This document shows positions 24,587-44,335 of a stretch of 64,000 bases of DNA, in pieces (position 1 is the stretch's first letter; every line of letters begins with the position of its first letter). The translations under genes were made by a program, and so were the position numbers. Source of the DNA: Rhizobiaceae bacterium (GTDB taxonomy: Bacteria; Pseudomonadota; Alphaproteobacteria; Rhizobiales; Rhizobiaceae); NCBI GenBank assembly GCA_027483885.1, contig JAIXTO010000042.1:18073-82072 (forward strand). Reading direction: 5' to 3'. The notes beneath the pieces are model-generated. The model had not been told where the DNA came from, ran no database searches, and saw only the letters and a program-made list of their open reading frames with translations.

Positions 24587-25516
24587 TCACACGGTGCGTT
24601 TGGCGAGAGCTGTTGCAATCTTCAGGCTGAATTTTTCAAGGCCCTCGCTCAGGAAGTCCACCATCGTATTGGCGGCATGGGTCAGCTTGCGATGACGCGG
24701 CACGACGACGCCGACCTGCAGGTCTTTCAGGCGCGAACCGGCAATGGGGAGGGCGACGACCTCGCCTGCTTCCAGTTCCTGCAACAGGCCAAGAGGCGTG
24801 AAGAAGGCGACGCCGGCACCAGACAGGATCAGCGGTTTCAGCATCATCTGGCTGTTGGTCGACACGAAGCTGCGGCCGTTGCGCTCCAGCGCGCCCAGTT
24901 CGATCGAGATCATCGAACTCATGACATCGTTGTTGAGCTGCAGCAGAAGATTGAACTGGGCGCATTCCTGCAGGCTGACGGTCTTTTGTCGTGCCAGCGG
25001 GTGATGTCTGGCAACGATGGCCATCAACGGCATGCTGACACCCCGCACCATCGCGACATCGGCAGGACGGTCGACATCGAACGTGATGCCGATATCCACG
25101 TCGCCCTCGGCCAGGCGCTGGTAGATATTGTAGCTTTCGGCGCGGATGCGGAAATCCACGGCGGGATGGCGGCGGTGAAACTCGGCCACCTGTTCGGGGA
25201 GGAACTGCACGGCAAGACTGTCGAGGCATGCAATATGCACGCGGCCGGTCTTCTTGCCCTTGAGGTCGCCGAGATCTCCCTTCATCACGTCATAGCGCTG
25301 CAACGTTTCGCGCGCGTGGCGAAGCACCACCTCGCCGGCGGATGTCAGGCGCAGCCCATCGGAAAACCGCTCGAACACCGGCGTGCCGAGTTCGTCTTCC
25401 AGCTTCTTGATCTGGCGGCTGAGGGCAGAGGTTGCCACATGCAACTCCTCCGAAGCCTTGCGGATCGAGCCGGTGCGGGCAATCGTTGCGAAATATTTGA
25501 GAATGCTGGCGTGCAT
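24587..25516 (-). CDS. LysR family transcriptional regulator
   Basis: 309 aa; HTH LKYFATIARTGSIRKASEELHVATSALSRQIKKLEDELGTPVFERF. Confidence 0.94.
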   Translation of the reverse strand: MHASILKYFATIARTGSIRKASEELHVATSALSRQIKKLEDELGTPVFERFSDGLRLTSAGEVVLRHARETLQRYDVMKGDLGDLKGKKTGRVHIACLDSLAVQFLPEQVAEFHRRHPAVDFRIRAESYNIYQRLAEGDVDIGITFDVDRPADVAMVRGVSMPLMAIVARHHPLARQKTVSLQECAQFNLLLQLNNDVMSSMISIELGALERNGRSFVSTNSQMMLKPLILSGAGVAFFTPLGLLQELEAGEVVALPIAGSRLKDLQVGVVVPRHRKLTHAANTMVDFLSEGLEKFSLKIATALAKRTV

Positions 25517-25558
25517 CGGGCCTTCCTTGGGGTGTTTCGGCCCTCAATCTACAGAAAG

Positions 25559-26335
25559 TCAGCGACCCTGCCAGATGGGGGCCCGTTTCTCCTGGAAAGC
25601 CCGCACGCCTTCGCTGGCATCCTCGCTCTGCAGCGCCCGAACCAGCGCGGGGGTGCGCAGGGACTGGGCTTCGGCCGGTGAAAGATGCGCGGTGCGGTTG
25701 ACGGTCTGCTTGATCGCCCGCAGGGAAAGCGGCGCGCAGGCGATGAGATCAGCGACCCATCGTTCGACCGCCTCGTCCAGTTCCTCACGCGGCGTCACCT
25801 CATTGACGATGCCAAAGCGCGCCATGTCATCTGCCGAAAACTGCCGGCCGCTCAGCATCACGCCCATGGCCTGGTTAAAAGGGATCTTGCGCTGCAACAG
25901 CACCATGCCGCCATCCAGCGGCATACGCCCGACGCGGGCTTCCGGCAGTCCGAACCTTGCATTGTCGGAGGCGATGACGATGTCGCAGCCGAGCACCATT
26001 TCAAAACCGCCGCCCAGCGCAAAGCCGTTGACCCTGGCAATGACAGGCACGTCGAGAGACCGACGAAAGGCGATGCCGCCAAAACCGGCCGGGCGGGCAA
26101 AGGCCCAGTAATCCAGCCCGGATTTGCCGCTGCCGCCCTTGAGGTCTGCACCGGCGCAGAAGGCCTTTTCGCCCGCCCCGGTGAGCACCACGCAACTGAC
26201 ATCGTCACGCGCTTCGATCTCACGCCATACCGCCTCGAGCGCCTCTTCGGTTGCCGCGTCCACCGCATTCATCCGCTCGGGGCGGTTGAGGGTGACACGG
26301 GCAACCCGCTCGCGGATCTCCAACAGCACGCTCAT
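25559..26335 (-). CDS. Enoyl-CoA hydratase/isomerase (crotonase family)
   Basis: MSVLLEIRERVARVTLNRPERMNAVDAATEEAL; KAFCAGADLKGG; NGFALGGGFEMVLGCDIVIASDNARFGLPEARVG. Confidence 0.95.
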   Translation of the reverse strand: MSVLLEIRERVARVTLNRPERMNAVDAATEEALEAVWREIEARDDVSCVVLTGAGEKAFCAGADLKGGSGKSGLDYWAFARPAGFGGIAFRRSLDVPVIARVNGFALGGGFEMVLGCDIVIASDNARFGLPEARVGRMPLDGGMVLLQRKIPFNQAMGVMLSGRQFSADDMARFGIVNEVTPREELDEAVERWVADLIACAPLSLRAIKQTVNRTAHLSPAEAQSLRTPALVRALQSEDASEGVRAFQEKRAPIWQGR

Positions 26336-27492
26336 GCGGCGTCACCCCTTAAGGCCTCAGGCGTGGATGGAAAGAACTCCGCATTGTGCTCACCAAGCGT
26401 CGGCGGCGCAAGGCGCACCGTCACGGGAGCAGCCGAGAGCGCTATGGGAGACCCCACCAGCCGCACGGGGCCGGCCGGCGTTTCGCCAGCCTCCAGCACC
26501 ATGCCGTTGATGCGGGTCTGCTCGTCGTCCAGGGCTTCGGCCAGCGTCCGCACCGGCGCACACAGGATATCGACATCCTCCAGCCGCTTCAGCCAATGGG
26601 CACTGGAGTTTTGTGCAAAGCGGTGGTGAAAGATGGCCTGAAGGGCCGAACGATTGGTCATCTGCCGGTCGAAATCGGCAAAATCGGGCTTGAGCGAGAG
26701 GTCCTCCATCTCCAGGGCGGCGCAGATATCGCGCAACGGGTTCTGCTTGAAGGCGCCGACCATGACGATCTCGCCATCGGTGGTGGCAAAGCAGCCGGTC
26801 AGCGGAAAGGCGCCCCAGTTCAGCTTTTTCTCGCGCATCATCCAGGCGGCACCCTCCTGCATCTGCAGGGCAAGCATCGAGGAGTAAAGGCTGACCGAAA
26901 CCTGCTGGCCCTCGCCGGTCTTGGCCCGATGCAACAGCGCCAGCAGGATGCCCTGGGCCAGATGCATGCCAGCGGCATAATCGGCAAGCGGCGTTGCATA
27001 GATCGAGGTCGGATGGGCCTCGTCACTCTTGCGCTTCATCAAGCCCGTCAGTGCCTGGGCCAGAATGTCCTGGCCGCCCTTGTGCCGATAAGGCCCCTCG
27101 AGGCCGAAGCCGGTTCCCACGGCAAAAATCAGGCGCGGGTTGAGCGCCTTCAGCGTCTCGTAGCCCAGCCCCATGCGCTCCATCACGCCGGGCCGGAAAT
27201 TGTTGACCACCACATCGGCATCCTTGATCAGGTCGAGGATGCCCTTCAGCACGGCATCCTGCTTCAGATCCAGCGCCAGGCTCTTCTTGTTGCGATTGAG
27301 CGAGCAGAATACCGGGTTATTGAGCCCGTCCGGATCCGAGCCCAGAGACCAGCGCGACAGGTCGCCGATTTTCGCCTTCTCGATCTTGATCACCTCTGCG
27401 CCGTAATCGGCCAGGGTCTGGGTGCAGCAGGGGCCGAGCATGACCTGGGTGAAATCGATAACGCGGATGCCGTCGAGGGGAAGGGTGGTCAT
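26332..27492 (-). CDS. CaiB/BaiF family CoA-transferase
   Basis: LPLDGIRVIDFTQVMLGPCCTQTLADYGAEVIKIEKAKIGDLSRW; NRNKKSLALDLKQ; VVVNNFRPGVMERMGLGYETLKALNPRLIF. Confidence 0.95.
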   Translation of the reverse strand: MTTLPLDGIRVIDFTQVMLGPCCTQTLADYGAEVIKIEKAKIGDLSRWSLGSDPDGLNNPVFCSLNRNKKSLALDLKQDAVLKGILDLIKDADVVVNNFRPGVMERMGLGYETLKALNPRLIFAVGTGFGLEGPYRHKGGQDILAQALTGLMKRKSDEAHPTSIYATPLADYAAGMHLAQGILLALLHRAKTGEGQQVSVSLYSSMLALQMQEGAAWMMREKKLNWGAFPLTGCFATTDGEIVMVGAFKQNPLRDICAALEMEDLSLKPDFADFDRQMTNRSALQAIFHHRFAQNSSAHWLKRLEDVDILCAPVRTLAEALDDEQTRINGMVLEAGETPAGPVRLVGSPIALSAAPVTVRLAPPTLGEHNAEFFPSTPEALRGDAA

Positions 27493-28847
27493 TCGGCAGC
27501 CTCCAGGAATGATGCATTGGCAGACGGCCTGTCGCCGGGATCTGCCCCTTGCGCCCGCAGGCGTTTTCGAATCTGGCCTATATCGGCCTGTCTCACGGTA
27601 ACGCCGGCATGGAGCGCGACGACGGCAGCGACACCGGCAGCCTCCCCCATGGCCATGCAGGGAGGGATTTCGCGGCTCGATTTCTGCGCCTGCGGCGTGG
27701 CGGAATAGTGCCGGCCGGCCACCAGGATCTGGTCGATTTCGCGTGGCAGCATGGCCCGGTAGGGGGTGTAGTAATCCCGGCCGCGGCAGACGGTATCTTC
27801 AAAATGCCTTCGGCTTGCCACATCCTCCTTGGTCACCACATAGTCGCCCTGCAGCAGGCGCGTCTGGCGCACGCCGGTCTGTGGCGCGAAATCCACCACA
27901 TAAGCCTTTTCGAAACCCGGCAGCTGTTCGCGGGCGAAATCCAAGAGCTTGCCGATGCGGGTGCGCCCTTCCATTTCCGCCGTCGTCAGGTCCTCGACGC
28001 TCAGGCCGGAGAGCTTGGGCATATGCGGGCAGTTGAGCCAGATAACACCGGGCAGCGGCGTCTCCAGCCACCAGAAGGACCAGCAGCCGCCGATCAGGCG
28101 CTTGGCCTCATGATCCAGTCGCTTGAAGCGTTCCGGCTCCTCATGCTCGAAGCGCTCGGCAGCGTCGGTATCGACACCGCCCCAGCGCGACACGGTGGTC
28201 AGGAGAAAATTGTCCTCGATATGGGCCGCGCCGGCATTGGCTGCAACGTCGAGGTCGCCGGTGGTATCGATGATCACGTCGCCCATGATCGCCTGCTGAC
28301 CGGCCTTGGTCTGGCAAACCACCCCTTTCACCACGCCATCCTCGACGATGGTGTGCGAGAACCAGCTGTGGGTGCGAAGCTTCACGCCGGCCTCGCGGAT
28401 CAGGTCATAGGCCGTGCCCTTGAAGGCATCGGGATCGAAGGCTGCGGAAAAGCACACCGGATGCGGCATGGTCTGGGTGTGGAAGTCGAACAGGCCCCAG
28501 CGTGACCAGCGGCGCCAGGCCTCCGGCGTCGCCCGGATATGGTCCTGCATGTCCTTCGCATCGGGCGTGACGCACAGGCCCTTCTTCTGCATCCGCTCGA
28601 TCATTTCCAGGCACAGCCCGCGCACGGTCACCTCGTGATCGTTCGTCATGTCATCGAGCACCAGCACCATGCCACCGGAGGCAAGACCGCCCAGATAGGG
28701 ATAACGCTCAAGAAGGGTAACGGAGGCGCCGTTGCGTGCCGCCGAGACTGCGGCCGAGATGCCAGCCGGTCCGCCGCCGACCACGACCACGTTGGATCTG
28801 TCGACGACCGGGACGTCGGCCGCGGGTCGGTGAATTGTCAATGTCAT
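27489..28847 (-). CDS. FAD-dependent oxidoreductase (FAD_oxidored / PF12831-like)
   Basis: NVVVVGGGPAGISAAVSAARNGASVTLLERYPYLGGLASGGMVLVLDD; VIIDTTGDLDVAANAGA; C-terminal GEAAGVAAVVAL. Confidence 0.9.
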   Translation of the reverse strand: MTLTIHRPAADVPVVDRSNVVVVGGGPAGISAAVSAARNGASVTLLERYPYLGGLASGGMVLVLDDMTNDHEVTVRGLCLEMIERMQKKGLCVTPDAKDMQDHIRATPEAWRRWSRWGLFDFHTQTMPHPVCFSAAFDPDAFKGTAYDLIREAGVKLRTHSWFSHTIVEDGVVKGVVCQTKAGQQAIMGDVIIDTTGDLDVAANAGAAHIEDNFLLTTVSRWGGVDTDAAERFEHEEPERFKRLDHEAKRLIGGCWSFWWLETPLPGVIWLNCPHMPKLSGLSVEDLTTAEMEGRTRIGKLLDFAREQLPGFEKAYVVDFAPQTGVRQTRLLQGDYVVTKEDVASRRHFEDTVCRGRDYYTPYRAMLPREIDQILVAGRHYSATPQAQKSSREIPPCMAMGEAAGVAAVVALHAGVTVRQADIGQIRKRLRAQGADPGDRPSANASFLEAAE

Positions 28848-28872
28848 GGCTGATGTCCTGTCGATTCTAACG

Positions 28873-29733
28873 TCAGTGGTTGCTGGTCTTCCAGCGGACG
28901 ATTTTCTTTTCCGCCAGCGACACGATGGAAAACAGCGTGACGGCAAGGGCTGCTGCAATCATCACCGTGGCGTAGAGCAGCGGCGAGCGGAAATTGTAGG
29001 TGGCCTCGATGATCAGCGCCCCGAGCCCGAAGCTTGATCCGATCCACTCGGCAACGATGGCGCCCATGACGCAACTGGTGGCAGCGATGCGCAGCGCGGC
29101 AAAAAGAAAGGGCATGGAGGCCGGGAGGCGGACCTTCCAGAGGATTTCCATCTGGCTTGCGGAAAGAACGCGCATCAGGTCCAGCATGGCGGGGCTTGCC
29201 GAGCGCAGGCCCTGGACCATGTTGACCAGCGTTGGAAAGAAGCAGATCAGGCCGGCAATGATGATCTTGGGTGCCACGCCATTGCCGAAGATCAGCACCA
29301 GGATCGGTGCAAGCGCGATGATCGGGATCGATTTGATAAAGACGGCGATCGGATAAAAGGCCTTCTCCGCATTGCTGTTGTGAACGAACCAGACGGCAAG
29401 CAGGATGGCGGCGAGATTGCCGAAGAAAAAACCTGCCAGGGCTTCCATCAGGGTCGGAAGCAGGTTCGTCCACAGCACGCCGGCATTGTCGCGAAGGGCA
29501 GCAAGCACTTCCAGCGGAGCCGGTGCCATGAAGGTCGGCACAGAAAAGACCGTGATGACGGACTGCCACAAAACGATGCAGCCGATGGCCGCGGTGATCG
29601 TCGGCCAGCGGTTGGCAAGCCAGTTCATCACGCCCTTCTGCAGGCAAACGCCAAGCGGCAGCGGCGCATCCTGGCGCCCGGACATATCCGCATCGCCGGC
29701 GGCAATTTTTGTCGAGGGTGCAATCTCGCTCAT
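28873..29733 (-). CDS. ABC transporter permease (SsuC/TauC-like)
   Basis: EALAGFFFGNLAAILLAVWFVHNSNAEKAFYPIAVFIKSIPIIALAPILVLIFGNGVAPKIIIAGLICFFPTLVNMVQGL. Confidence 0.93.
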   Translation of the reverse strand: MSEIAPSTKIAAGDADMSGRQDAPLPLGVCLQKGVMNWLANRWPTITAAIGCIVLWQSVITVFSVPTFMAPAPLEVLAALRDNAGVLWTNLLPTLMEALAGFFFGNLAAILLAVWFVHNSNAEKAFYPIAVFIKSIPIIALAPILVLIFGNGVAPKIIIAGLICFFPTLVNMVQGLRSASPAMLDLMRVLSASQMEILWKVRLPASMPFLFAALRIAATSCVMGAIVAEWIGSSFGLGALIIEATYNFRSPLLYATVMIAAALAVTLFSIVSLAEKKIVRWKTSNH

Positions 29734-30548
29734 CAGCATTCCTCCAGAAGGGCACGCAGATGTGCGGTGATCTTCACGAATTCCAGCGTATCGCGGATCT
29801 TCAGCGAGCGGGGGAAGGGAAGGTCCACCTTCAGGAACTCCTTCACGCGGCCCGGATGAGATTGCAGCATCAGCACATGCTGGCCGAGAAACACCGCCTC
29901 CGGGATGGAGTGCGTGACGAAGAGGATGGTGGTCCCGGTCTCCTGCCAGAGGCGCAGCAATTCCTCGTTCAGCTTGTCGCGGGTGATTTCGTCGAGCGCG
30001 CCGAACGGTTCGTCCATCAGAAGGATGCGCGGGCGCGTCACCAGCGCCCTTGCAATCGCCACGCGCTGGCGCTGGCCGCCGGACAACTCGTCCGGCAGGG
30101 CATTTTCGCGTCCCTTGAGGCCAACCATGTCCAGCAGTTGCGCAGGATCGGCATAGGAACTGCCGGGACCATGGCGGCCGACTTCAAGCGGCAGGCGCAC
30201 ATTGTCGATCACAGTTCGCCAGGGCAAAAGCGTTGCCTCCTGGAAGACGAAGGCAAAATCGCGGCCTTCCCGCGCCTGCCTTGGCGTTTGCCCGTTGACC
30301 GAAACGGTGCCGCCGCTGATCGGCACGAGATCGGCGACACAGCGCAGAAGCGTCGATTTCCCGCAACCCGATGGACCCAGCATGGTGACGAAACCGCCCT
30401 GCGGAATATCCACGGACACTTTTGACAGTGCCGTGAATTGCGATGCGCCGCTTCCGAAACGGATGTCGAGATTGCGGATGGAAACGGCAGGCGCGCAAAA
30501 AGCCGCGTCCATGGGCGTGTGCTCTTTTGCAAGACCGGCTGCCATCAC
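29733..30548 (-). CDS. ABC transporter ATP-binding protein (SsuB/TauB-like)
   Basis: Walker A GPSGCGKST; LSGGQRQRVAIARAL; LLMDEPFGALDE. Confidence 0.95.
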   Translation of the reverse strand: MMAAGLAKEHTPMDAAFCAPAVSIRNLDIRFGSGASQFTALSKVSVDIPQGGFVTMLGPSGCGKSTLLRCVADLVPISGGTVSVNGQTPRQAREGRDFAFVFQEATLLPWRTVIDNVRLPLEVGRHGPGSSYADPAQLLDMVGLKGRENALPDELSGGQRQRVAIARALVTRPRILLMDEPFGALDEITRDKLNEELLRLWQETGTTILFVTHSIPEAVFLGQHVLMLQSHPGRVKEFLKVDLPFPRSLKIRDTLEFVKITAHLRALLEEC

Positions 30549-30550
30549 GG

Positions 30551-31582
30551 TTATCCCACCTGCTTGCGGATGTCGGCGGTGGCGTCGAGGATCGCCAGGC
30601 TCATGACGTCATCGACAGTCGGCACCGAGCCCTTGAACTGTCCGAGATCGGCATAGGCGCCGAGCTGGGCCTTCCAGTTGTCGGCGTTCATGGCGCCCCA
30701 GCCGCTTTTCGCCGTCACATCGTTGAAGGCAAATTTCATCAACGGGCCGATCGCTTCCAGTTCATTCGCCTTGTCGAGATTGGGGTAGGCCTCCACCAGA
30801 AGCGAGACCGCTTCCTCCTGGTGATCGCGGGCATAACCCCAGCCCCTGGCGGTGGCGCCCAGGAAGCGTGTCAACTCGTCTGAATGCTTGGAAAGCTGGG
30901 CGTCCGTGGTGTAATAAACGTTGGCGTAAAGCTGCAGCCCGCCATCCCACAACATGAGATCGACACGGTCGTCGCCGAGCACCTTGAGGGCGCTGGTATT
31001 GGTGAGCCAGCCGGTCACGGCATCGGCCTGACCGGTGATCAACTGGTTCATGTCGGAGCCCATGTTGACCATCTTCACCTGGTCTTCCGCAATGCCGTTC
31101 TTCGCGAGAAGCGCCCGCAGCAGGATGAAGGCCGTCGGTTGTGTGGCAATGGTCTTGCCGATCATGTCCTTCGGCGAGGCAATCGGCTTGCCCTTGCGCG
31201 AGAAGTAAGCAAACGGGTGCTTCTGATAACCCGCTGCAATGGCTTTCACCGGCATGCCGGCAGAGCGGGCCAGCATGACCGACGGGCTCGACGAGATCTG
31301 TCCGAGCGTCGATTGTCCGGCTGCGACGCCGGCCACGCCATCGACATTCGGGCCCCCGGGCACGATGTCGAGCGTGATACCCGCATCCTTGTAGAACCCT
31401 TTCTTCATGGCGACGACCTCGCCCAGAATTCCGTTGGAGGCCAACCAGCCGAGCTGCATGCGGATCGTAGCATCGGCGGCGCGGGCGCTGGAGATGCTGA
31501 GGAGACTTGAGGTGGCTGCAAGCGTGCCCGCAGCGGCGCTGCCGGCGAGAAATCCGCGCCGGTTCATCGATAAATTGGACAT
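30551..31582 (-). CDS. ABC transporter substrate-binding protein (NMT1/SsuA-like), Tat-type signal
   Basis: MSNLSMNRRGFLAGSAAAGTLAATSSLLSISSARAADATIRMQLGWLASNGILGEVVAMKKGFYKDAGITLDIVPGG; likely start 31582. Confidence 0.9.
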   Translation of the reverse strand: MSNLSMNRRGFLAGSAAAGTLAATSSLLSISSARAADATIRMQLGWLASNGILGEVVAMKKGFYKDAGITLDIVPGGPNVDGVAGVAAGQSTLGQISSSPSVMLARSAGMPVKAIAAGYQKHPFAYFSRKGKPIASPKDMIGKTIATQPTAFILLRALLAKNGIAEDQVKMVNMGSDMNQLITGQADAVTGWLTNTSALKVLGDDRVDLMLWDGGLQLYANVYYTTDAQLSKHSDELTRFLGATARGWGYARDHQEEAVSLLVEAYPNLDKANELEAIGPLMKFAFNDVTAKSGWGAMNADNWKAQLGAYADLGQFKGSVPTVDDVMSLAILDATADIRKQVG

Positions 31583-31672
31583 CTGGTTCCCCTTTTTGGA
31601 GCGCGACTGTGACCGGTCACGCCGTATGCCTTCTGGCACTGGAGGAAATGATGCGGGAAGGAAGCGTTCTAA

Positions 31673-31697
31673 GAAAGAAGAATTTTTAGTTTCTTTC
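31673..31697. promoter_or_regulatory. Inverted repeat GAAAGAA-N11-TTCTTTC upstream of the NMT1-type SBP gene, followed by TTGCC-N5-GGCAA (31699-31713)
   Basis: Directly read; two adjacent dyads in the promoter region of the minus-strand ABC operon. Confidence 0.4.
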
Positions 31698-31896
31698 ATT
31701 GCCGATATGGCAACGCATTTTAGGCAGGATCTGGTCGGCAAGACGGCCGCCGGCGCGGCCGCAGTTTTTGCCGATCAGTGCAAACCTTTGCCGCTTCCTC
31801 GATGCGGTTCATGTCTTGGGGGAAGGATCTCGATCGCCAACCGTTCGGCGAAACGTGCCTGCGGGGCTCCGCGTCAGCCCTTGCGCCGCCGCCCCA

Positions 31897-33972
31897 TCAA
31901 GGCGAATGCTGCGAGACGGCCACGCGAAAACCGTTGCCGCGCCAGTAGCCATCCGGTTCAAGGCTGCCGCGATAGGTGGTGCAGGCCTTCAGCTTGCCGC
32001 TCGAAAAACATCCGCCGCGCAGTACCCGGCGAATGCGCGGGCCGGCATCGGGGTCTTCCCGGCCATCCATGGCATAGGGGTATGTGAACGAGGGCGTCGT
32101 CATGTCGTTGCCCCAGAGCGTCGTTGTCCATTCCCAGACTTCGCCGGCCATGTCGAAGCAGCCGTAAGGGGACCGCCCCTTGGGAAACAACCCGACAGCA
32201 ACAGTGCGGTTGAAGCCGGCTTCCTCGGAATTGCAGGCGTCCGGCTGGAACTGCGCGCCCCAGGGATAAACGATGGTCTGGTCGCCAGCATCCGGCTGAT
32301 CGCCGCGGGCTGCCCGTTCCCATTCCGGTTCGGTGGGCAGGCGCACCACGTCATGCGGCTCGATCCGGCCTTCGGCCCGCCACCGCAGCGTCAGCCAGGC
32401 GCAGTAGGCGTTCGCATCATGCCAGGTGAGATCGGTTGCCGGCGCATTGCGGCGCTCGGGGTCGTGCGCCTCGGGGCTTTTCCATGACCGCCCCGTCTCT
32501 GCGATGAAGCGGGCGTAATCGGCATTGACGACGGGATAACGACCGAGGCGAAAGGCTTCCACGGTGACCGGATGGGCGGGTGCGGAATTCGGATGGGTTG
32601 CCGATCCGAACGTGAAGGTGCCGCCGGGGATATCGGCAAGCCCCTGCAGATCGCGCGGATCACCGAAATACGAGAGCGTGCGCGCGGCCCGTTCACGGCG
32701 ATAGGCCGAGAGGCGGCCCTCTTCGACAACCGACAGAAGAAGCGGCAGTACGTGCTGGCGAAGCTCTGGCGCCTGTTCCAGAAATTCGGCGGCGAGCAAC
32801 GCGCCGTGGAACGGCATGTCATCGGGTCCGGAAAGCAGTGGCTCGATCAGCGGTGCAATCGGCCGGCCGCTTGCCAGCAGCCGGCGGGCAAGGTTCTGGA
32901 TCAGCGGCTCGAAGGCCTGCGGGTTCTCGCGGTAGAGCGCTACTGCCTCTGCCGGCGGATGAAGATGAAGCTCGTTTGCAGCCAGCAGCGTCGAAAACCG
33001 GAGGCCTAGCGTCTGCAGTCTTTGCAGGATCGTGTCATTCTGTTCAAAACCATCGCCTGTGACATACGCCAGCGCATGACGCGTCACCACCATCGGATCA
33101 ATGCCGAGCTGCCGGGCGACTCCGCCCGCCCAGGCATCGGCCAGGGCCTGTTCGCTGTCCGGCTCCGTCTGCGGCTGGATTTCCATCCGGGCACCGAAGA
33201 GGGCCGGGTTGGCGGTCAGGCTCGAGAGCAGGTTTACCGGCATTTCGGGTGCGCCCGCCCGCCGCTGGCTGGCAAGAAGCGGCAGCAATTCATATCGCGG
33301 CAGATCGGCGGGCAGCGGCCAGTCGCGCACGATGCGGCTGTCGCCGAGAAGGAGAGCGCGCACATGGGGCGTCGTGGCCTGAAATTGTCGCACCGCATCG
33401 ATCATCTGTGGCCCCGCCGCCTGAAGGGCGTCGATGCCGTCGACAATCAGCAGCAAGCCGGCATCGCCGTCGCACCAGGTATCGCTGTCGAGGAGGGTGC
33501 AGAGACCGGGCAGGCGGCGCTCGATCAGCGTTTCAAGCGTCAGGCCCGCTTGCGCGTCGATCACCAGCGGCACGAGGTTTTGGATGTCGAACATTTCAGG
33601 CGCGGTGTCGCCTGCCTCGTTGCGGACGATCATGCGGGGTGCGTTTTCGCCCGAGGCAATCTGCCAGGCAAGCTGGCGGGCAAAGCTCGTCTTGCCGGCG
33701 CCGCTCTCGCCGGTGAGGAGCAGCAGGGCGTGGTCACGCACCATTTCCACAGCCGAAAAATGCTGCGGTACGGGAGGCGGGGCGCCGTCGGCAAACACAC
33801 GCAGGCCCTTGGCCGCCTTGTCCTCGTCGGTGAAATTGACAAGAAGCGGGATGAAACCCTCGATCAGCGAAACAGGCCGGCCCTGCGGCCCCTCGTCCGG
33901 CAGGACATGAACCACGGTGCTTGCAGCCGTGGCGACGGCCTCCGTTCGCAGGCGATCAAGGGCATCATGCAT
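31897..33972 (-). CDS. STAND/NACHT-like P-loop NTPase fused to C-terminal FGE-sulfatase (SUMF1-like) domain
   Basis: 691 aa. Walker A LLLLTGESGAGKTS (about residues 83-96), Walker B-like LLLIVDGIDAL (about 173-183), HEAT-like linker RRERAARTLSYFGDPRDLQ, then FGE-sulfatase IPGGTFTFGS...HPVTVEAFRLGRYPVVNADYARFI...RLPTEPEWERAARG...YGCFDMAGEVWEWT...RRVLRGGCFSS...YRGS...GFRVA. Confidence 0.88.
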   Translation of the reverse strand: MHDALDRLRTEAVATAASTVVHVLPDEGPQGRPVSLIEGFIPLLVNFTDEDKAAKGLRVFADGAPPPVPQHFSAVEMVRDHALLLLTGESGAGKTSFARQLAWQIASGENAPRMIVRNEAGDTAPEMFDIQNLVPLVIDAQAGLTLETLIERRLPGLCTLLDSDTWCDGDAGLLLIVDGIDALQAAGPQMIDAVRQFQATTPHVRALLLGDSRIVRDWPLPADLPRYELLPLLASQRRAGAPEMPVNLLSSLTANPALFGARMEIQPQTEPDSEQALADAWAGGVARQLGIDPMVVTRHALAYVTGDGFEQNDTILQRLQTLGLRFSTLLAANELHLHPPAEAVALYRENPQAFEPLIQNLARRLLASGRPIAPLIEPLLSGPDDMPFHGALLAAEFLEQAPELRQHVLPLLLSVVEEGRLSAYRRERAARTLSYFGDPRDLQGLADIPGGTFTFGSATHPNSAPAHPVTVEAFRLGRYPVVNADYARFIAETGRSWKSPEAHDPERRNAPATDLTWHDANAYCAWLTLRWRAEGRIEPHDVVRLPTEPEWERAARGDQPDAGDQTIVYPWGAQFQPDACNSEEAGFNRTVAVGLFPKGRSPYGCFDMAGEVWEWTTTLWGNDMTTPSFTYPYAMDGREDPDAGPRIRRVLRGGCFSSGKLKACTTYRGSLEPDGYWRGNGFRVAVSQHSP

Positions 33973-33980
33973 GACAGACC

Positions 33981-34376
33981 TCAGCGGAAAAGTTTGGCGA
34001 CGTCGGGATTGTGAAAGCGCTGGATCTCGATGGCATAACCGGCGGGATCCTCGAAAAAGAAATGTTCGCAGAACGTGCCGCGCAGCATATCCGAAAGACC
34101 GGGCACTTTTGCGGCAGAGAGCTTGTCATGCCAGGCCTGAACCTCTTCGCTGACGATGGTCAGCAGGACCGCGCTTTTCGGCTGGTGCTTCAGGTGGCCG
34201 CGATTGCCATCGACAATGCCGAAATAGCTGTTGGGCGCGATGCGATAGATGCGCGCCATGGTCTGGTCGAGCACCAGTTCGAAGCCCAGCACCTCCTCGT
34301 AGAAGGGAATGACGGCATGGATGTCGTCGTAATAGAAGAAGGTGATCGAATAATCTCTGGTCAAATCTCTGGTCAT
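33981..34376 (-). CDS. VOC-family (glyoxalase/bleomycin-resistance fold) protein
   Basis: 131 aa; SITFFYYDDIHAVIPFYEEVLGFELVLDQTMARIYRI...FGIVDGNRGHLKHQP...FFEDPAGYAIEIQRF. Confidence 0.9.
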   Translation of the reverse strand: MTRDLTRDYSITFFYYDDIHAVIPFYEEVLGFELVLDQTMARIYRIAPNSYFGIVDGNRGHLKHQPKSAVLLTIVSEEVQAWHDKLSAAKVPGLSDMLRGTFCEHFFFEDPAGYAIEIQRFHNPDVAKLFR

Positions 34377-34390
34377 GGGCTTTCTCCGGA

Positions 34391-35785
34391 TCAGGCGACG
34401 ACGAGCGTGCCCTTGTGGTCAATCGACAGGCCGTTCAGGCCTTTGCGGGCGGCAAACACGTCGATGGGATGGGTAATGTAGAGCCAGGGCGGGTTGTCCC
34501 TGAGGTGCGACAGGCATTTCCCATAGGCTGTTTCGCGGGCTTCCGGCGCGACCGCCGCGTTTGCCGCGGCAATCAACTGCTCGGCCTGCGGATCGTCGAA
34601 CCCCTGCCACCAAACGGCCTTCGTGACGCTTGAAATCTTGTCGTTCAGGATGCGGTAGGTGCTGTGCGGCGAGGAATCGAAGATCGCCATGTCGCCCATT
34701 TCCTTGCGGCCGATCTGGCGGGCGTATTCAGGTCTGTCCTCCTCGATTTCGACATCCACGACAAGGCCAACGGCCTCAAGCGCTCCCGCCACGAAGGCAC
34801 TGATCTCAGGAGCCCGCTCCGGCATGAAGGTGGGGCTGCGCAAACAGATGCGGGTGCCGATGGCGCCGATCTCTTCCAGAAGCGCACGGGCCTTTTGCGG
34901 ATCGTACGCGATCGGCTCCAGTTTGGCCGAGGCCATGCCGAGGTGGAAAGGGCTGACAATGGAGGAGGATGGGATGGCGAGGCCGTGAAAAATGTCCCGC
35001 ACGATGGCTTGGCTGTCGACGGCGTGGTTGACGGCAAGACGCGCCTGCGGGTGGCGGAAAAGCCCTGTCGAACAGTTGAGGTAATACATCACCGACAAGG
35101 TGTTTTCGGCCTGCCCCCAATCAAAGGCCGGATCGAAATCCGGCTTTCCGTGCATGCGCTCGAGATTAAGCGCTGCGTCGGCCTGCCCTTCCTTCATGAG
35201 CGAAAACCGCGCTTCAGCAGAAGGCTCGGCCAATGCTACAATCCTCTGCGGAGCAGCGGTGGCGTCGAGCCTTTCCAGTGTCACGCGCCTTCTTGGCTCA
35301 AAATCCGTGACCCGGAAAGGGCCGGTGCCAAGCGTTGGCGTGCCATCAGGTGCTGTACGGCAAATGTAGAATTCGGAGAAGATGTCGAGGATATCGGCAA
35401 TCGGCCGGGGATTGCTAACGCTGATCGTGAGGTCATCGGGGGCGGAAAGGGTCGCATCGGCGAGATAACGTGCATAGGACCATTTCATGCCAAAGGTGTC
35501 GACGGCCTCCAGAATACCGTCGATGAAGGCGAGGATGTCGGACGCGGTGCAGGGTTTGCCATCATGAAACCGAGCACCGTCGCGGATCCGGAACTGCCAG
35601 TGGCATCCTTCGTGATCCCGCGACCAACCGGAAAAAAGCGCCGGCAAAACCTTACCGTCACGCCATTTCAGCAGCGGTTCGAACACCAGATTTTTCAGCG
35701 TCAACACGCTGGTATCGTCGGTCACGCGGGTCGGCGGCAGGAAATCCACCTTTTCGAGCGCGATGGTCAGGGTCTCTTCTGCCAT
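34391..35785 (-). CDS. Family-5 ABC substrate-binding protein homologue with no recognisable signal peptide
   Basis: Start at 35785: MAEETLTIALEKVDFLPPTRVTDDTSVLTLKNLVFEPLLKWRDGKVLPALFSGWSRDHEGCHWQFRIRDGARFHDGKPCTASDI; the mature-type SBP5 sequence begins at residue 4. Confidence 0.88.
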   Translation of the reverse strand: MAEETLTIALEKVDFLPPTRVTDDTSVLTLKNLVFEPLLKWRDGKVLPALFSGWSRDHEGCHWQFRIRDGARFHDGKPCTASDILAFIDGILEAVDTFGMKWSYARYLADATLSAPDDLTISVSNPRPIADILDIFSEFYICRTAPDGTPTLGTGPFRVTDFEPRRRVTLERLDATAAPQRIVALAEPSAEARFSLMKEGQADAALNLERMHGKPDFDPAFDWGQAENTLSVMYYLNCSTGLFRHPQARLAVNHAVDSQAIVRDIFHGLAIPSSSIVSPFHLGMASAKLEPIAYDPQKARALLEEIGAIGTRICLRSPTFMPERAPEISAFVAGALEAVGLVVDVEIEEDRPEYARQIGRKEMGDMAIFDSSPHSTYRILNDKISSVTKAVWWQGFDDPQAEQLIAAANAAVAPEARETAYGKCLSHLRDNPPWLYITHPIDVFAARKGLNGLSIDHKGTLVVA

Positions 35786-35792
35786 GGAGGCC

Positions 35793-36632
35793 TCAGTTGA
35801 TCTGCGTGCGGCGGCGGGGATTAAACCAGTCGGCAAGGCTGTCACCGATCAGGTTGAAGGAGAGGACGGCGAGCAGAATGGCGCCGCCCGGGGCCAGCAC
35901 CACCCAGATGGCACTGCGCGCATATTGCAGGTTGAGCGCCACGTCCGCGCCCCATTCCGACAGCGGCGGCTGCGCGCCAAGCCCTAGAAAACCAAGGCTT
36001 GCCGTCTGCAGGATGGCACTGCCGAGCGCCAGCGTCGATTGCACCAGAAGCGGGCCGATGCCATTGGCAAAGATATAGCGCAGGAGGATGCGCCGCGATG
36101 ACAGGCCGAGCGAAACGGCCGCCTCCACATAAGGTTTGACGGAGATGGCGAGCGCCTGTCCGCGCGCAACGCGGGCAAATTGCGGGGCAAGCGTGATGGC
36201 AACGGCGAGCATGGCATTCTGCAGGCTGGGGCCGAAGGCGGCGGCAAGCGCGATGGCGAGAACCAGCGCCGGAAACGAGAGGATCGCATCGACGATGCGC
36301 ATGATCACCGTATCCGTCCATCCCCCGACATAACCGGCGAGCGTTCCGAAAAACACGCCGATAACAAAGGCAAGCCCGACAACGCCGAGCCCGATGGCAA
36401 GCGTTGCGCGCCCGCCATACATGATGCGGGTCAGGATATCGCGGCCGAAGGAATCTGTTCCCAGCCAATGGGCAGCGCTTGGTCCTTCGAGCTTATGCAG
36501 AATGTCGAGCTTGGTTGGCGTATAGGGGCTGACGAACGGGCCGACAAAGGCCAGAAGCAGAAGTGCTGCAAGGATGAGAGCGCCGACGAGCGCCAGCCGG
36601 TTGTGCCGGAAAAAGAGGATCGTCTCGGTCAT
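35793..36632 (-). CDS. Dipeptide/oligopeptide ABC transporter permease (DppC-like)
   Basis: MTETILFFRHNRLALVGALILAALLLLAFVGPFVSPYTPTKLD; HWLGTDSFGRDILTRIMYGGRATLAIGLGVVGLAF. Confidence 0.95.
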   Translation of the reverse strand: MTETILFFRHNRLALVGALILAALLLLAFVGPFVSPYTPTKLDILHKLEGPSAAHWLGTDSFGRDILTRIMYGGRATLAIGLGVVGLAFVIGVFFGTLAGYVGGWTDTVIMRIVDAILSFPALVLAIALAAAFGPSLQNAMLAVAITLAPQFARVARGQALAISVKPYVEAAVSLGLSSRRILLRYIFANGIGPLLVQSTLALGSAILQTASLGFLGLGAQPPLSEWGADVALNLQYARSAIWVVLAPGGAILLAVLSFNLIGDSLADWFNPRRRTQIN

Positions 36633-36634
36633 GG

Positions 36635-37645
36635 TCAGTCCATCCTCCGGCGAATGCGGGGGTCGAGCACGCCGTAGAGCAGATCGACGATGATCGAGGT
36701 GGTGACGAAGAGCAGGGCAAAGACGAGCGTCGTGCCCTGGATGACCGGATAATCGCGGTTCTTGATCGCCTCGAACATGTAGCGCCCGATGCCCGGCCAC
36801 GAGAACACGGTTTCGGTGAGGATCGCGCCGCCGAGCATTTCGGCAAATTTCAAACCGATCACGGTGAGCGCTGGCATCAGGGAATTCAAAAGCCCATGCT
36901 TCAGCACCACCTGATGGCGGTGAAGACCCTTGGCGGTGGCCGTGCGAATAAAGTCCTCCCCCATCACCTCCAGCATGGTGTTGCGCACGAAACGGGCAAG
37001 CGTGGCTGCCAGAAACAGCGCGAGAACCGTGACCGGCAGGACCAGATGCGCGAGCCCGCTCAGCGCTGCGGCCGGATTGCCGGCAATCAGGCTGTCGAGA
37101 ATGATGAAGCCGGTGATGGGTTCAACGGTCAGATAGGCATCGAGCCGTCCAGACACCGGCAGCCAGCCGAGATGGGTGGCAAAGATCAGTTGCAGCACGA
37201 GTGCCAGCAGGAAGGCCGGCATGGAAACGCCCATCAGCGAGACGACGCGCAGGGTGTGATCAAACAGCGTGTTGGCTTTGACGGCGGAGAGAACGCCAAG
37301 CGGAATGCCGACAAGAATGGCGACGAGAACGGCGAGCACCGACAGTTCGATGGTGGCGGGAAGGCGTGCCAGAATTTCACGCAGCACCGGCTCGCCGCTT
37401 TTGAGCGACAGGCCGAGATCGCCATGGGCAAGGCCGACCAGATAATCTGTAAACTGCAAAAACACTGGCCGGTCGAGATGCAGTTGCGCGCGAAGTGCGG
37501 CGATCTGCTCGGAGGTGGCGCCCGGGCCAAGCAGCGTCACGGCGGGATCGCCGGGGATGAGGCGGACCAGCGAAAACGCGATGACCAGCACGATGGAAAG
37601 CACCGGGATCAGTCCGATCAGCCGGCGCAGAAGAAAGTTCAGCAT
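36635..37645 (-). CDS. Dipeptide/oligopeptide ABC transporter permease (DppB-like)
   Basis: MLNFLLRRLIGLIPVLSIVLVIAFSLVRLIPGDPAVTLLGPGATSEQIAALRAQLHLDRP; LPVTVLALFLAATLARFVRNTMLEVMGEDFIRTATAKGL. Confidence 0.95.
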   Translation of the reverse strand: MLNFLLRRLIGLIPVLSIVLVIAFSLVRLIPGDPAVTLLGPGATSEQIAALRAQLHLDRPVFLQFTDYLVGLAHGDLGLSLKSGEPVLREILARLPATIELSVLAVLVAILVGIPLGVLSAVKANTLFDHTLRVVSLMGVSMPAFLLALVLQLIFATHLGWLPVSGRLDAYLTVEPITGFIILDSLIAGNPAAALSGLAHLVLPVTVLALFLAATLARFVRNTMLEVMGEDFIRTATAKGLHRHQVVLKHGLLNSLMPALTVIGLKFAEMLGGAILTETVFSWPGIGRYMFEAIKNRDYPVIQGTTLVFALLFVTTSIIVDLLYGVLDPRIRRRMD

Positions 37646-37718: not shown

Positions 37719-39281
37719 TTACCCCTTGGACACGCTCCAGTATTCATTGAGCGGCGGGGCGCTGTTGATGACGAGACCCTTCACGTTGGAACGGGCATAA
37801 ACGATGAGCTTGGGGCTGAACAGATAGGCGCCCGGCACCCGCTTCATGATCTCTTCCTGCACGGTGAAATAGAGCTTCTTGCGGGTTTCCATGTCGGCGG
37901 TCTGCTGCGCCTTGAGGATCAGCGCATCGAGATCCTTGTCTTCAGGCATGCGGAAGGTCATCGCCGTATTGGCAAGCGAAGACAGGTAACCGATGGTGAT
38001 ATGGGCATCCGGATCGTTGTACCAGGGCTGGCGGCCATCAAGCGCCACATCGAACTGGCCGGCGGTCTGCAGCGTGCGATAGGCCGGGAATTCGGTCTGC
38101 TCGATCGTCGCATTGATGCCGATATCGGCCAGGTTTGCCTGCACGAAGGTGGCAACCGCGCCCCAGAGCGGACCCTGGAAGCTGTAGAGCTTGATCGACA
38201 GGCTGGTCGGATCGACACCGGCTTCCTGCAGCAGCTTCTTGGCGAGGTCCGGATCGTATTTCGGTGCAAGCTCCTTCACCTTCGGATCGAAAGCCCAGCT
38301 GTTCGTGGTCAGCGGACCATAAACACGCTCGGCTGTGCCGCCGAAGACACCGGCAAGAAGGCCGTCGTAATCGATGGCGCTGGCAATCGCCTTGCGCACG
38401 CGCACATCGGCAAACGGACCGTCCTTCTTGGAATTGTTGAATTCGAGTTGGCGGATGATCTGGCTCGAGGCTTCGAGAACCTGCACATCCTTGTTTTTCT
38501 TCAGCGAGGCGATGTCTTCGGCGGCGATCGCCGAGAGCTGGCCCTGCTGCTGGACGACATCGACGCCGCCGTTTTCAAGCTCCAGCCGGCGCGTGGAGGC
38601 ATCCGGGATGACGCGGTAAACGATACGCGACAGTTTTGGCGCGCCGCGGAAATAGGAGGGGTTGGCGTCCAGGATCACATTGGTATCGGCCTGCGCGCTC
38701 TTGAACACGAAGGGGCCGGTGCCCACAGGGTTCTTGGCAAAGCTGTCGCCGAATTTCTGGACGGCAGCCGGGCTGACGATGGCGGCCTGCGGCTGGGCAA
38801 GGATCGACAGGAAAGCGGGGTAGGGCTGCGCGAGGCTGATCTTCACTTCCGTCGGCGAGACGACCGCGATATCGGAAATGAGGCCGAACGTCGCCTGCAC
38901 ATAGGAATTGCTCTTCTTCGTGCGCTCCAGCGAAAACTTCACTGCGGCCGCATCGAAATCGGTGCCATCATGGAACTTCACGCCGGGGCGAAGCTTGAAA
39001 TCAAACTCCTTGCCATCGGCCGACACGGTCCATGTATCAGCCAGGCGGCCTTCCACCTTGGTGAAATCAGGTGCGGTCCAGGCCACCAGCGTGTCGAACA
39101 CGTTGAGGATGATTTCGCTGCCGATGGGCTCGGCCTTGTTGGTGCCGGGCTCAAGCGCCACCGGATCGGACGGCACGGCAACGACCAGCGTTTTTGACTG
39201 GTCCTGGGCCTGGGCGTCGATTGCGCCCGCAAGGAGCGGCACCATCAATCCCAGAGTGGCAAACTGCTTCCAGACGGTCAT
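37719..39281 (-). CDS. Family-5 ABC substrate-binding protein (DppA-like) with signal peptide
   Basis: MTVWKQFATLGLMVPLLAGAIDAQAQDQSKTLVVAVPSDPVALEPGTNKAEPIGSEIILNVFDTLVAW; likely start 39281. Confidence 0.93.
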   Translation of the reverse strand: MTVWKQFATLGLMVPLLAGAIDAQAQDQSKTLVVAVPSDPVALEPGTNKAEPIGSEIILNVFDTLVAWTAPDFTKVEGRLADTWTVSADGKEFDFKLRPGVKFHDGTDFDAAAVKFSLERTKKSNSYVQATFGLISDIAVVSPTEVKISLAQPYPAFLSILAQPQAAIVSPAAVQKFGDSFAKNPVGTGPFVFKSAQADTNVILDANPSYFRGAPKLSRIVYRVIPDASTRRLELENGGVDVVQQQGQLSAIAAEDIASLKKNKDVQVLEASSQIIRQLEFNNSKKDGPFADVRVRKAIASAIDYDGLLAGVFGGTAERVYGPLTTNSWAFDPKVKELAPKYDPDLAKKLLQEAGVDPTSLSIKLYSFQGPLWGAVATFVQANLADIGINATIEQTEFPAYRTLQTAGQFDVALDGRQPWYNDPDAHITIGYLSSLANTAMTFRMPEDKDLDALILKAQQTADMETRKKLYFTVQEEIMKRVPGAYLFSPKLIVYARSNVKGLVINSAPPLNEYWSVSKG

Positions 39282-39509
39282 TCGTGATGCATCCTTCCTG
39301 TTGTGTGAAGCCTTGAGGGTGTGTGCCAAGGCCGGTGGCCGGGGAAAAGCTGTCATTTCCCTGTGATATTCCACGAAATATATCATTGGTTCGCAGCCTG
39401 TAAAGGTCGCATGCCTGTTTCCTGTCCAGGAAGCATGTTTTGCCTATTTTATACTCTCTTGCCGAATGAATTTACTGTATTTAAGCAGTACGACGGGTCG
39501 TTCCGCCAC

Positions 39510-40367
39510 TTATTCAGGCAGAGCGCCGGTCACAACAGGCCGGTCCGGGTCTGTCACCCAATGCGACCAGGAACCGGGATACATCGCAGCCTCGATGCCA
39601 ATGGCGGCAAGTGCCAGCACCGAATGGGCCGCCGACATGCCGGCACCACAATAGACGCCGACCGGCTTAGCCCCATCGGCGCCTAAGGCCGCATACATCG
39701 CGCGCAGCGTGTCGCTCTCGGTGAAATTGCCGTAATCGGTGACATTATCGGGGGCAGGGGCGGAGCGGGCGCCGGGAATATGCCCGCGCGGCGGCTGGCC
39801 GGGGGCGGCCACCCCGCCGATATAGTTCGGGCGGATGCGAGCATCGATGAGCACGCCCGAGCGGGCAATATCGAGCGCCTCGTCTGGCCCGAATTCCGGC
39901 ATGTGGCCGCCCGTCAGCGTGATCGTGCTGGGATGGGGTTGTGTTTCGGTGTCGCTGACCGGCAGTCCGGCGGAAAGCCAGGCGGGAAAACCACCGTCGA
40001 GCACGCGCACATCGGAAAATCCCGCCCAGCGCAGCACCCACCAGGCGCGCGCCGCCGTCATGCTGCGGTCGGCATCATAAACCACGATGGTGCTGTCGCG
40101 CCGCAGGCCCCACGCCCGGGCCCTTACCTCAAAATCCTCGATGCGGGGCAGCGGTCGCTGTCCGGCACCCGGCGAGGCGGGCGACTGGAAATCCCGGTAC
40201 GCCTCAGTATCGATGGCACCTTCGATGCGCTTGCCGGTAAAATAGTTTTGGCCCGTATAAGGGTTGACCGAGTGGACGGCGAGGATGGTGATGTCATGGC
40301 CGCCGAGCCGCATGGCCTGCAGCTGCTGCGGGGTTAAAAGCACGCGTTCACGGATCGGATCGGTCAT
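39510..40367 (-). CDS. Sulfurtransferase with two rhodanese domains (SseA-like)
   Basis: ILAVHSVNPYTGQNYFTGKRIEGAIDTEAYRDFQSPA; VVYDADRSMTAARAWWVLRWAGFSDVRVLDGGFPAWLSAGLP; active-site loop VYCGAGMSAAHSVLALAAIGIE. Confidence 0.9.
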   Translation of the reverse strand: MTDPIRERVLLTPQQLQAMRLGGHDITILAVHSVNPYTGQNYFTGKRIEGAIDTEAYRDFQSPASPGAGQRPLPRIEDFEVRARAWGLRRDSTIVVYDADRSMTAARAWWVLRWAGFSDVRVLDGGFPAWLSAGLPVSDTETQPHPSTITLTGGHMPEFGPDEALDIARSGVLIDARIRPNYIGGVAAPGQPPRGHIPGARSAPAPDNVTDYGNFTESDTLRAMYAALGADGAKPVGVYCGAGMSAAHSVLALAAIGIEAAMYPGSWSHWVTDPDRPVVTGALPE

Positions 40368-40401
40368 CGTCTGCCTTGTCCATGTAGTCCGACGGGGACG
40401 A

Positions 40402-41136
40402 CTAGAGCGTCAGGCCGGAGCGGCCGTTGGAGATGAGCGCCGTCAAAATGCCGACGCGGGTGTTTTCGTTGTGGCGCACCATGGCAGCGCGGGCTGCCTG
40501 CGCATCACGCTTGCGCAGGACCTCGACGATCTCGTGATGATCGCGGTTGGTTTCCGGGTTCACGTCGCGCATGCGCGCGCCCATGTAGAAGAGCCGGGCG
40601 CATTCCTCGAGATGGCTGATGACCAGAGCATGCAGGCGCGGATTGCGCGAGGCCTGGGCAATGGCCGCATGAAACGCCTGGTTTGCCTCGACAAAACTGC
40701 GCACGCTGGCGTTTTCGCCCAGCTCGTAATTGACGTCGGCCAGCCTATCCAGTTCATCGAGTTCTTCGGCCGTCAGGTTTTCCGCGGCGAGCGCTGCCGC
40801 CGATCCCTCCAGCATTTCACGGATGGCGAAGAGGTCGTTCATGTCCTTCACCGTCACCGGCGTCACGCGGTAGCCGCGCCGGGGATAGGCTTCCATGAAA
40901 CCTTCGACGCAGAGCCGTGCCAAGGCTTCACGTACCGGCGTCTTGCTCACCGAAAGCTGCTCGGCCAGTTCCGGCTCGGACACTTCCATGCCCGGCGGCA
41001 TATCACCGGTGATGATCCGCTCACGCAGGCTCGCATAGGCCATTTCCGTCAGCGACTTGCCGCGACGGGCCGTCTGGGGTTCGCCTGGCTGGTCCATATC
41101 CGCTGCAATCTCTGTCATTCTTCGTTCCGTTCGCAA
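40402..41136 (-). CDS. GntR family transcriptional regulator (FadR/FCD subfamily)
   Basis: wHTH LTEMAYASLRERIITGDMPPGMEVSEPELAEQLSVSKTPVREALARLCVEGFMEAYPRRGYRV; C-terminal FCD. Confidence 0.94.
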   Translation of the reverse strand: MRTERRMTEIAADMDQPGEPQTARRGKSLTEMAYASLRERIITGDMPPGMEVSEPELAEQLSVSKTPVREALARLCVEGFMEAYPRRGYRVTPVTVKDMNDLFAIREMLEGSAAALAAENLTAEELDELDRLADVNYELGENASVRSFVEANQAFHAAIAQASRNPRLHALVISHLEECARLFYMGARMRDVNPETNRDHHEIVEVLRKRDAQAARAAMVRHNENTRVGILTALISNGRSGLTL

Positions 41137-41284: not shown

Positions 41285-41947
41285 GTGTCTCAGATTCTCG
41301 TCATCAATCCCAACAGTTCCGTCTCCGTGACGCGGTCGATGGAGGATTGCCTTGCGCCGGTGCGCGCCGCCTCCCGCCATGACGTGATGTGTACGGAACT
41401 GGCAAAATCGCCGCCGGGCATCGAAACCGATGCACATGTGCAGGAAGTGATCCCGCATCTCATCGAAAAGATCCGCGGTTCGGATGCCGATGCCTTCGTC
41501 GTCGCCTGTTTTTCCGACCCGGGCATCGACACGGTGCGCAAGGCAACGACGCGCCCGGTGATCGGCATTGCGGAAGCCGCTTATCTCGCAGCACTCGGCC
41601 TTGGCCGTCGCTTCGGTATAGTCTCGCTTGGGCCATCCTCAATTGCCCGGCACCTGCGTTACCTCAAACATCTTAATCTCGATCAGCGGCTTGCCGGCGA
41701 TCGCTCCATCGACATGACGGTGGTGCAGTTGATGGCAACGGACGCCGCCGAACAGGTTGCACGGATCGGACGGGCATTGCGTGACGAGGATGGCGCCGAT
41801 GTCATCATTCTCGGCTGCGCCGGCCTTGGCGGTTATCGGCCTCAGATCGAGGCGCTGCTCGGCCTTCCCGTGGTTGATCCGGTGCAGGCCGGGGCAGCAC
41901 TTGCCTGCACCACGGTTGATTTGAACTATACGAGGACGCTTGCATGA
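41285..41947 (+). CDS. Asp/Glu racemase family protein (hydantoin racemase-like)
   Basis: ILVINPNSSVSVTRSMEDCLAPVRAASRHDVMC; DAFVVACFSDPGIDTVRKATTRPVIGIAEAAYLAALGLGRRFGIVSLG; ADVIILGCAGLGGYRPQIEALLGLPVVDPVQAG; GTG start. Confidence 0.9.
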   Translation: MSQILVINPNSSVSVTRSMEDCLAPVRAASRHDVMCTELAKSPPGIETDAHVQEVIPHLIEKIRGSDADAFVVACFSDPGIDTVRKATTRPVIGIAEAAYLAALGLGRRFGIVSLGPSSIARHLRYLKHLNLDQRLAGDRSIDMTVVQLMATDAAEQVARIGRALRDEDGADVIILGCAGLGGYRPQIEALLGLPVVDPVQAGAALACTTVDLNYTRTLA

Positions 41948-43305: not shown

Positions 43306-43353
43306 CAACTTTGCCGCACCATCCGCCCACAATCTGATTGTCGAGAGAGAGCC

Positions 43354-44280: not shown

Positions 44281-44335
44281 TGCCGAACATTTTTGCAGAG
44301 CCTCAGTTGAGGCATTGGCCGGACAGGGTGACCTC

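Follow-up and report, generated by a model that had tools for sequence, protein, structure and literature searches.

The window, the whole stretch of 64,000 nucleotides that was analysed, carries on its minus strand a set of solute-import genes, here designated N, M, L, K, J, I and X in that order. N (39510-40367) encodes a protein like rhodanese or 3-mercaptopyruvate sulfurtransferase, M (37719-39386) a family-5 solute-binding protein, L (36635-37645) an OppB/DppB-type permease, and K (35793-36632; the listed ORF extends to 36800, with 36632 as the likely start) an OppC/DppC-type permease. J (34391-35788; listed ORF 34391-35845, likely start 35788), located between permease K and gene I, encodes a second family-5 solute-binding protein, which is devoid of a signal peptide. 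I (33981-34376) encodes, as judged from Pfam and locus comparison, a VOC/glyoxalase-fold protein of 131 amino acids, and is situated directly before X (31897-33972) in 20 loci. The homologues of M that were read begin with signal-peptide-like segments, and the copies of J with readable N-termini lack a signal peptide as does J itself; from these N-termini, J is probably a cytosolic binding protein.

At the head of the locus is the gene for a GntR/FCD regulator, O (40402-41136, minus strand). A divergent arm on the plus strand includes a member of the Asp/Glu/hydantoin racemase family (41285-41947), an amidohydrolase that resembles the ergothioneine-type hydantoin amidohydrolases and is closest to ErtD, the hydantoin-5-propionate amidohydrolase (41944-43305), a DHDPS-family enzyme (43354-44280), and a PatB-family C-S lyase (44264-45490). 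The PatB-family enzyme passes the NCBIfam cutoff (420 vs. 340 bits), and the amidohydrolase stays below the equivalog cutoff (504.5 of 600 bits) and is therefore not an ErtD member. It is possible that this arm (41285-45490) represents an undescribed pathway of sulfur or hydantoin catabolism. A promoter scan gave results at the chance level, with two sites found against 2.1 expected. In the literature search, no paper was found on this cassette, nor any that joined ergothioneine, hydantoin-5-propionic acid and amidohydrolase.

The product of X, 691 amino acids from an ATG start, is encoded on the minus strand, and the plus strand over the same positions is interrupted by stops. As identified by ORF, Pfam, structural model and homologues, the protein is composed of three parts, a NACHT/STAND-type NTPase, HEAT-like helices, and a fold of the formylglycine-generating enzyme (FGE), with intact Walker motifs and with loss of the FGE copper cysteine pair. 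In the alignment of 18 homologues, Walker A (GESGAGKT, residues 88-95 with K94) was positioned at 33688-33711 and Walker B (LLLIVDGIDA, residues 173-182 with D178) at 33427-33456, both on the minus strand; the GKT of Walker A and D178 are invariant in all 18, and the first Gly of the GxxxxGKT pattern is replaced by Ala in four of them (L086, L087, L101, L103). The motifs listed in the initial annotation, GESGAGKT, LLLIVDGIDAL around D178, RRERAARTLSYFGDPRD and RGGCFSSGKLKACTTYRG, are all present in the translation of this ORF. Proteins of this type on plasmid records carry the automatic annotation 'SUMF1/EgtB/PvdO family nonheme iron enzyme'.

For X alone, the P-loop families of Pfam remained below threshold (nSTAND3, 25.4 of 27.2 bits; NACHT, 23.0 of 26.7 bits). 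Among 11 homologues, matches were obtained to AAA_16 in 11, to nSTAND3 in ten (best E=1.5e-07), and to NACHT in nine (best E=1.8e-07), and the Terrarubrum homologue was above the NACHT cutoff (30.9 vs. 26.7 bits). By hhalign, the profile of eight N-terminal halves of the X family matched the NACHT region of the TIR-NACHT-FGE protein of Candidatus Chlorohelix (L118) across 144 columns that stretch from the P-loop past Walker B (probability 97, E=1.2e-10), and a Chloroflexota protein (L035) across 61 columns (E=2.3e-07). Since an ABC ATPase, included as control, was aligned over 22 columns with a probability of 56.7, the NACHT homology of X extends well past the P-loop. Together with the invariance of the Walker residues, this alignment bears out the earlier assignment of the N-terminal half to the STAND/NACHT-like NTPases. 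No Pfam effector domain was detected ahead of the P-loop in X or in the 11 homologues, and no DNA-binding domain was recognized in X.

The model of residues 25-345 alone (four sequences) was poor, with a mean pLDDT of 54.6. Its structural matches are AAA+/STAND proteins, NLRC4 (Z 9.2), NAIP5, NOD2, NLRP3 and ORC/Cdc6; these matches agree with the sequence result but, given the low confidence of the model, do not prove it. The full-length model (14 sequences; mean pLDDT 68.3, pTM 0.55) is good from around residue 346 and weak before it; pLDDT is mostly below 50 for residues about 213-330, and the ARC/winged-helix part is not recognizable. Residues 346-440 (32653-32937, minus strand) form predicted helices, with block pLDDT mostly of 77-95. 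A weak match to HEAT_PBS in one homologue (E=0.007, below cutoff) and a structural match to ToxD reaching residue 385 (see below) agree with these helices in pointing to the HEAT-like linker as first described.

The C-terminal domain (residues 446-685; 31918-32637, minus strand) matches Pfam FGE-sulfatase (PF03781) with E=4e-43, in line with the initial annotation, which had named an FGE-sulfatase domain and had also noted the lack of two closely spaced catalytic cysteines. Upon direct alignment with four FGEs of canonical motif, X reads GGCF---SSGKLKA opposite GGS-x-L-C-H-E-S-Y-C, and neither copper cysteine is present. The motif GGS-x-x-C-x4-C is absent from the C-terminal stretch of all 18 homologues, and thus no intact copper-coordinating site, which had been taken to imply an ordinary sulfatase activator, was found in this family. 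C655 (codon 32008-32010, minus strand), the sole invariant cysteine near the former copper site, aligns with the Ser of GGS and with neither of the copper cysteines; no second cysteine is invariant among the 18 homologues. Because the copper cysteine pair is missing, X is not an FGE. The Pfam match and the FGE fold would suit an ordinary sulfatase-activating enzyme, but besides the loss of both cysteines, no sulfatase was found among the identified surrounding genes and the X family is placed in the FGE tree as a clade of its own (support 100/99), away from canonical FGEs, so that an activator of sulfatases is highly improbable.

The top structural match of X is ToxD of toxoflavin biosynthesis (7spq; Z 29.2, rmsd 3.4, 260 aligned positions, residues 385-688), which includes part of the helical linker. 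The next matches, TvpA, PorK, PvdO and human FGE, are at about Z 25. Thus X shares with SUMF1/FGE the overall fold, and with ToxD the fold and also a helical N-terminal extension, but ToxD-like proteins have only about 316-339 amino acids, lack a P-loop, and are separated from the clade of X. At three plasmid loci, the genes for ToxD-like proteins adjoin ribA or ribD, together with a gene for a WD40 or beta-propeller protein, and this toxoflavin context (ribA/ToxB, WD40/ToxC) was not found in the X cassette. On the Agrobacterium plasmid pAt1D1460 (L120), a ToxD-like gene lies beside WD40, ribA, VOC and LuxR/LuxI-type genes, and the group has the appearance of a toxoflavin-type cluster. The literature search yielded no paper that joined toxoflavin with formylglycine-generating.

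The level of conservation differed markedly between the parts of X, as estimated from the 18 intact homologues with mean identity measured to X. The FGE domain stands far above the rest, with 93 of 248 positions invariant and a mean identity of 0.71, followed by the linker (10 of 95; 0.40), the NTPase core (11 of 135; 0.37), and the helices after the NTPase core (5 of 130; 0.34). The C-terminal stretch RVLRGGCF...RGNGFR ranks among the best-conserved parts. Except for near-identical pairs with too few changes, dN was lower than dS in every domain of the homologue pairs tested. In this respect X is unlike immune sensors, and its conservation pattern, as read from the alignment, is the reverse of that of a diversified immune sensor. 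One candidate role, as target of a diversity-generating retroelement (DGR), was rejected on the ground of the invariant C-terminus, and no such element was seen near X.

Among sensor proteins, conservation is usually higher in the NTPase. Since in X the NTPase is less conserved than the FGE domain, an enzymatic FGE domain fits at least as well. The domain would then catalyse one step of the pathway, as an oxidase other than FGE or as an enzyme of sulfur chemistry (cf. ToxD, PvdO, EgtB and SenA), with the NACHT module serving only to regulate, load or oligomerize it. The FGE-fold relatives EgtB, OvsA and SenA act on sulfur or selenium substrates, and sulfur genes are present at the locus of X as well; C655, H460, D636, E639 and E672, all invariant, are candidate site residues, but invariance alone is no proof of catalysis. 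The sulfoxide or selenoxide synthases EgtB, OvoA and SenA resemble X in the C-terminal FGE-like fold and in the sulfur context, but no DinB domain, as is found in EgtB-type enzymes, was hit by Pfam in X, the FGE copper pair is missing too, and the curated models all score far below cutoff against X (SenA, 73.7 of 420 bits; EgtB, 68.9 of 360 bits; OvoA and PvdO likewise). We consider a pathway enzyme rather unlikely, but it is a serious rival, because no other part of X is as well conserved as the FGE domain and because ToxD is a pathway protein.

The gene order N-M-L-K-J-I-X, with X as the last gene, was the same in all 20 genomes or plasmids read, that is, the window, 13 related stretches, two further genomes (G264 and G707), and plasmids of Alloyangia, Terrarubrum, Rhizobium sp. 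BG6 and Neorhizobium sp. EC2-8. Found in soil bacteria, the cassette with X thus spans at least three families, including Terrarubrum (Terrirubraceae) and Alloyangia (Rhodobacterales). In two of the 20, G042 (L078) and Neorhizobium sp. EC2-8 (L104), several genes are frameshifted, which may stem either from errors of assembly or from a cassette that is decaying as a whole. Of 100 related genomes, the 14 with J are also the 14 with full-length X, the window's own genome and the frameshifted G042 among them, and J and X likewise share the same eight plasmid records; among the matches listed from the 401 plasmid records that match X, only these eight match at least 65% of its length. The location of X in a metabolic operon had been regarded as unexpected; the fixed gene order and the co-occurrence with J lend it much firmer support than was available at that time. 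The exceptions, which count against X as an obligate part of the cassette, are an orphan J in G159 (about 51% identical; L095, 12407-13768), with neither the cassette nor X around it, and a lichen contig (L034), in which X runs off the contig edge and has PatB and N as neighbours in an arrangement unlike that of the cassette.

Downstream of X, the genes differ between the loci of the 13 related stretches, and the NMT1, ABC, FAD and CoA-transferase genes of the window (24587-31741) are not conserved as a group beside X in these stretches and are therefore not counted as part of the cassette. Transposase genes of IS5 and IS110 adjoin X in Alloyangia. In the loci of several relatives (L076, L077, L086, L087, L101, L103), a fused GsiA-like ABC ATPase is encoded, between N and O, which is missing from the corresponding position of the window (40367-40402). 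Only a fragment of this ATPase, 86% identical, was matched at L068 (17676-18182), and the best matches in the window's genome are 63-66% identical; the importer of the window would need to borrow an ATPase. The idea that X is a stand-in for the missing ABC ATPase was rejected, because the relatives that keep the fused ATPase also keep X.

The X family is narrow and patchy. Its N-terminal half was matched in five of 297 Rhizobiales genomes (clearly in the window and G264, weakly in three), and in three of 398 genomes at the phylum level (clearly in the window and G707). A class-wide profile search gave 20 of 385, but all except the window were weak (E of 6e-5 or worse, and mostly of P-loop size). 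Among the 297 Rhizobiales genomes, the VOC protein I was found in three (the window, G264, and a 40% match in G082) and J in five (the window, G264, G159, and two 30% matches). In the FGE tree, which consists of 30 rows, is midpoint-rooted and has several forks open, the X clade adjoins, though weakly supported (82/51), two NTPase-HEAT-FGE proteins of Chloroflexota and shares one half of the tree with ToxD and the TIR-NACHT-FGE protein (80/92). X may therefore be a NACHT-FGE protein that, after losing an effector or without ever having carried one, was fixed in a nutrient cassette. The genome of the window contains a second match to the FGE domain, in an open frame of 1613 amino acids on contig C226 (L002).

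In PMC10907252, PMC7159879 and PMC8195603, FGE/CLec domains are described as parts of STAND systems and of ternary conflict systems, and in the first of these papers STAND-FGE/CLec proteins are tied to putative defence. A further possibility is that X is an anti-phage, STAND/Avs-like defence protein located by chance in a metabolic operon. Its nearest architectures outside the cassette are of conflict type, TIR-NACHT-FGE in Candidatus Chlorohelix and NTPase-HEAT-FGE in two Chloroflexota bins, and its distribution is patchy and often plasmid-borne. The TIR-NACHT-FGE protein (1055 amino acids, encoded at 2230-5397 of L118, a Candidatus Chlorohelix plasmid) has the same order of NACHT and C-terminal FGE/C-type-lectin fold as X, but X differs from it in that neither TIR nor another effector is recognized, in the near-invariant FGE domain, and in the setting within an import cassette. 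In addition, PADLOC gave weak matches for X (best E 4.6e-4, residues 79-107) and no convincing defence system in a scan of ten neighbourhood genes, and of the 14 phage records that match X, none covers 80% and the five listed match only residues 445-686. Taken with the fixation of the cassette over at least three families, these observations make a defence protein improbable, and for the direction of defence, to which the proposed assays of induced toxicity and phage plating point, no support was found. As a separate case, the Acaryochloris plasmid L117 carries a DGR-linked conflict locus, consisting of genes for a serine protease, a MoxR ATPase, two FGE proteins, a reverse transcriptase and Avd.

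MalT-type STAND regulators combine the logic of a nucleotide switch with nutrient uptake. X resembles these regulators in that the Walker A of three homologues (L086, L087, L101) reads APxGxGKTT, but differs in that it has no recognized DNA-binding domain. We favour, over a pathway enzyme of FGE fold, the reading of X as a switch: it would be an effector-less, NLR-like ATPase that forms an obligate cytosolic part of the cassette for solute import and catabolism and is gated by the imported solute as ligand, a proposal to which we give about an even chance. The FGE-fold end would bind a single, invariant ligand, for which the imported solute or its product is the likeliest candidate, and J could present this ligand to the domain. 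Binding of the ligand would then gate the binding or hydrolysis of ATP in the NACHT module, by MalT-like logic. Because neither an effector nor a DNA-binding domain is recognized in X, its output would go to a partner, such as J, I, the permease or the GntR regulator. The presence of this GntR regulator at the locus, however, counts against X as a switch. The solute is probably a sulfur-containing compound of cysteinyl or hydantoin type, because genes for a sulfurtransferase, a C-S lyase, an ErtD-like amidohydrolase and a racemase are located nearby, although this guess is drawn from neighbouring families of which only PatB is above a curated cutoff.

Discussion of STAND-FGE proteins has treated them as immune sensors whose lectin-fold ends are diversified. 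The same architecture, frozen in a nutrient-import cassette, offers a tractable case for how an FGE fold engages its ligand and how a NACHT module switches in the absence of an effector. The analysis also corrects the automatic annotation of these proteins as nonheme iron enzymes of the SUMF1/EgtB/PvdO family, and points to a possibly undescribed locus of sulfur or hydantoin catabolism with a cytosolic binding protein. More tentatively, with somewhat less than an even chance, an NLR-type receptor may have moved here from immune sensing to nutrient handling, with a NACHT ATPase and a lectin-fold reader working together with a cytosolic binding protein; no effector would be needed, because the output would be the control of uptake or catabolism. 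If this is true, the module that receives an imported solute within the cell is of a type with which other bacteria detect phages.
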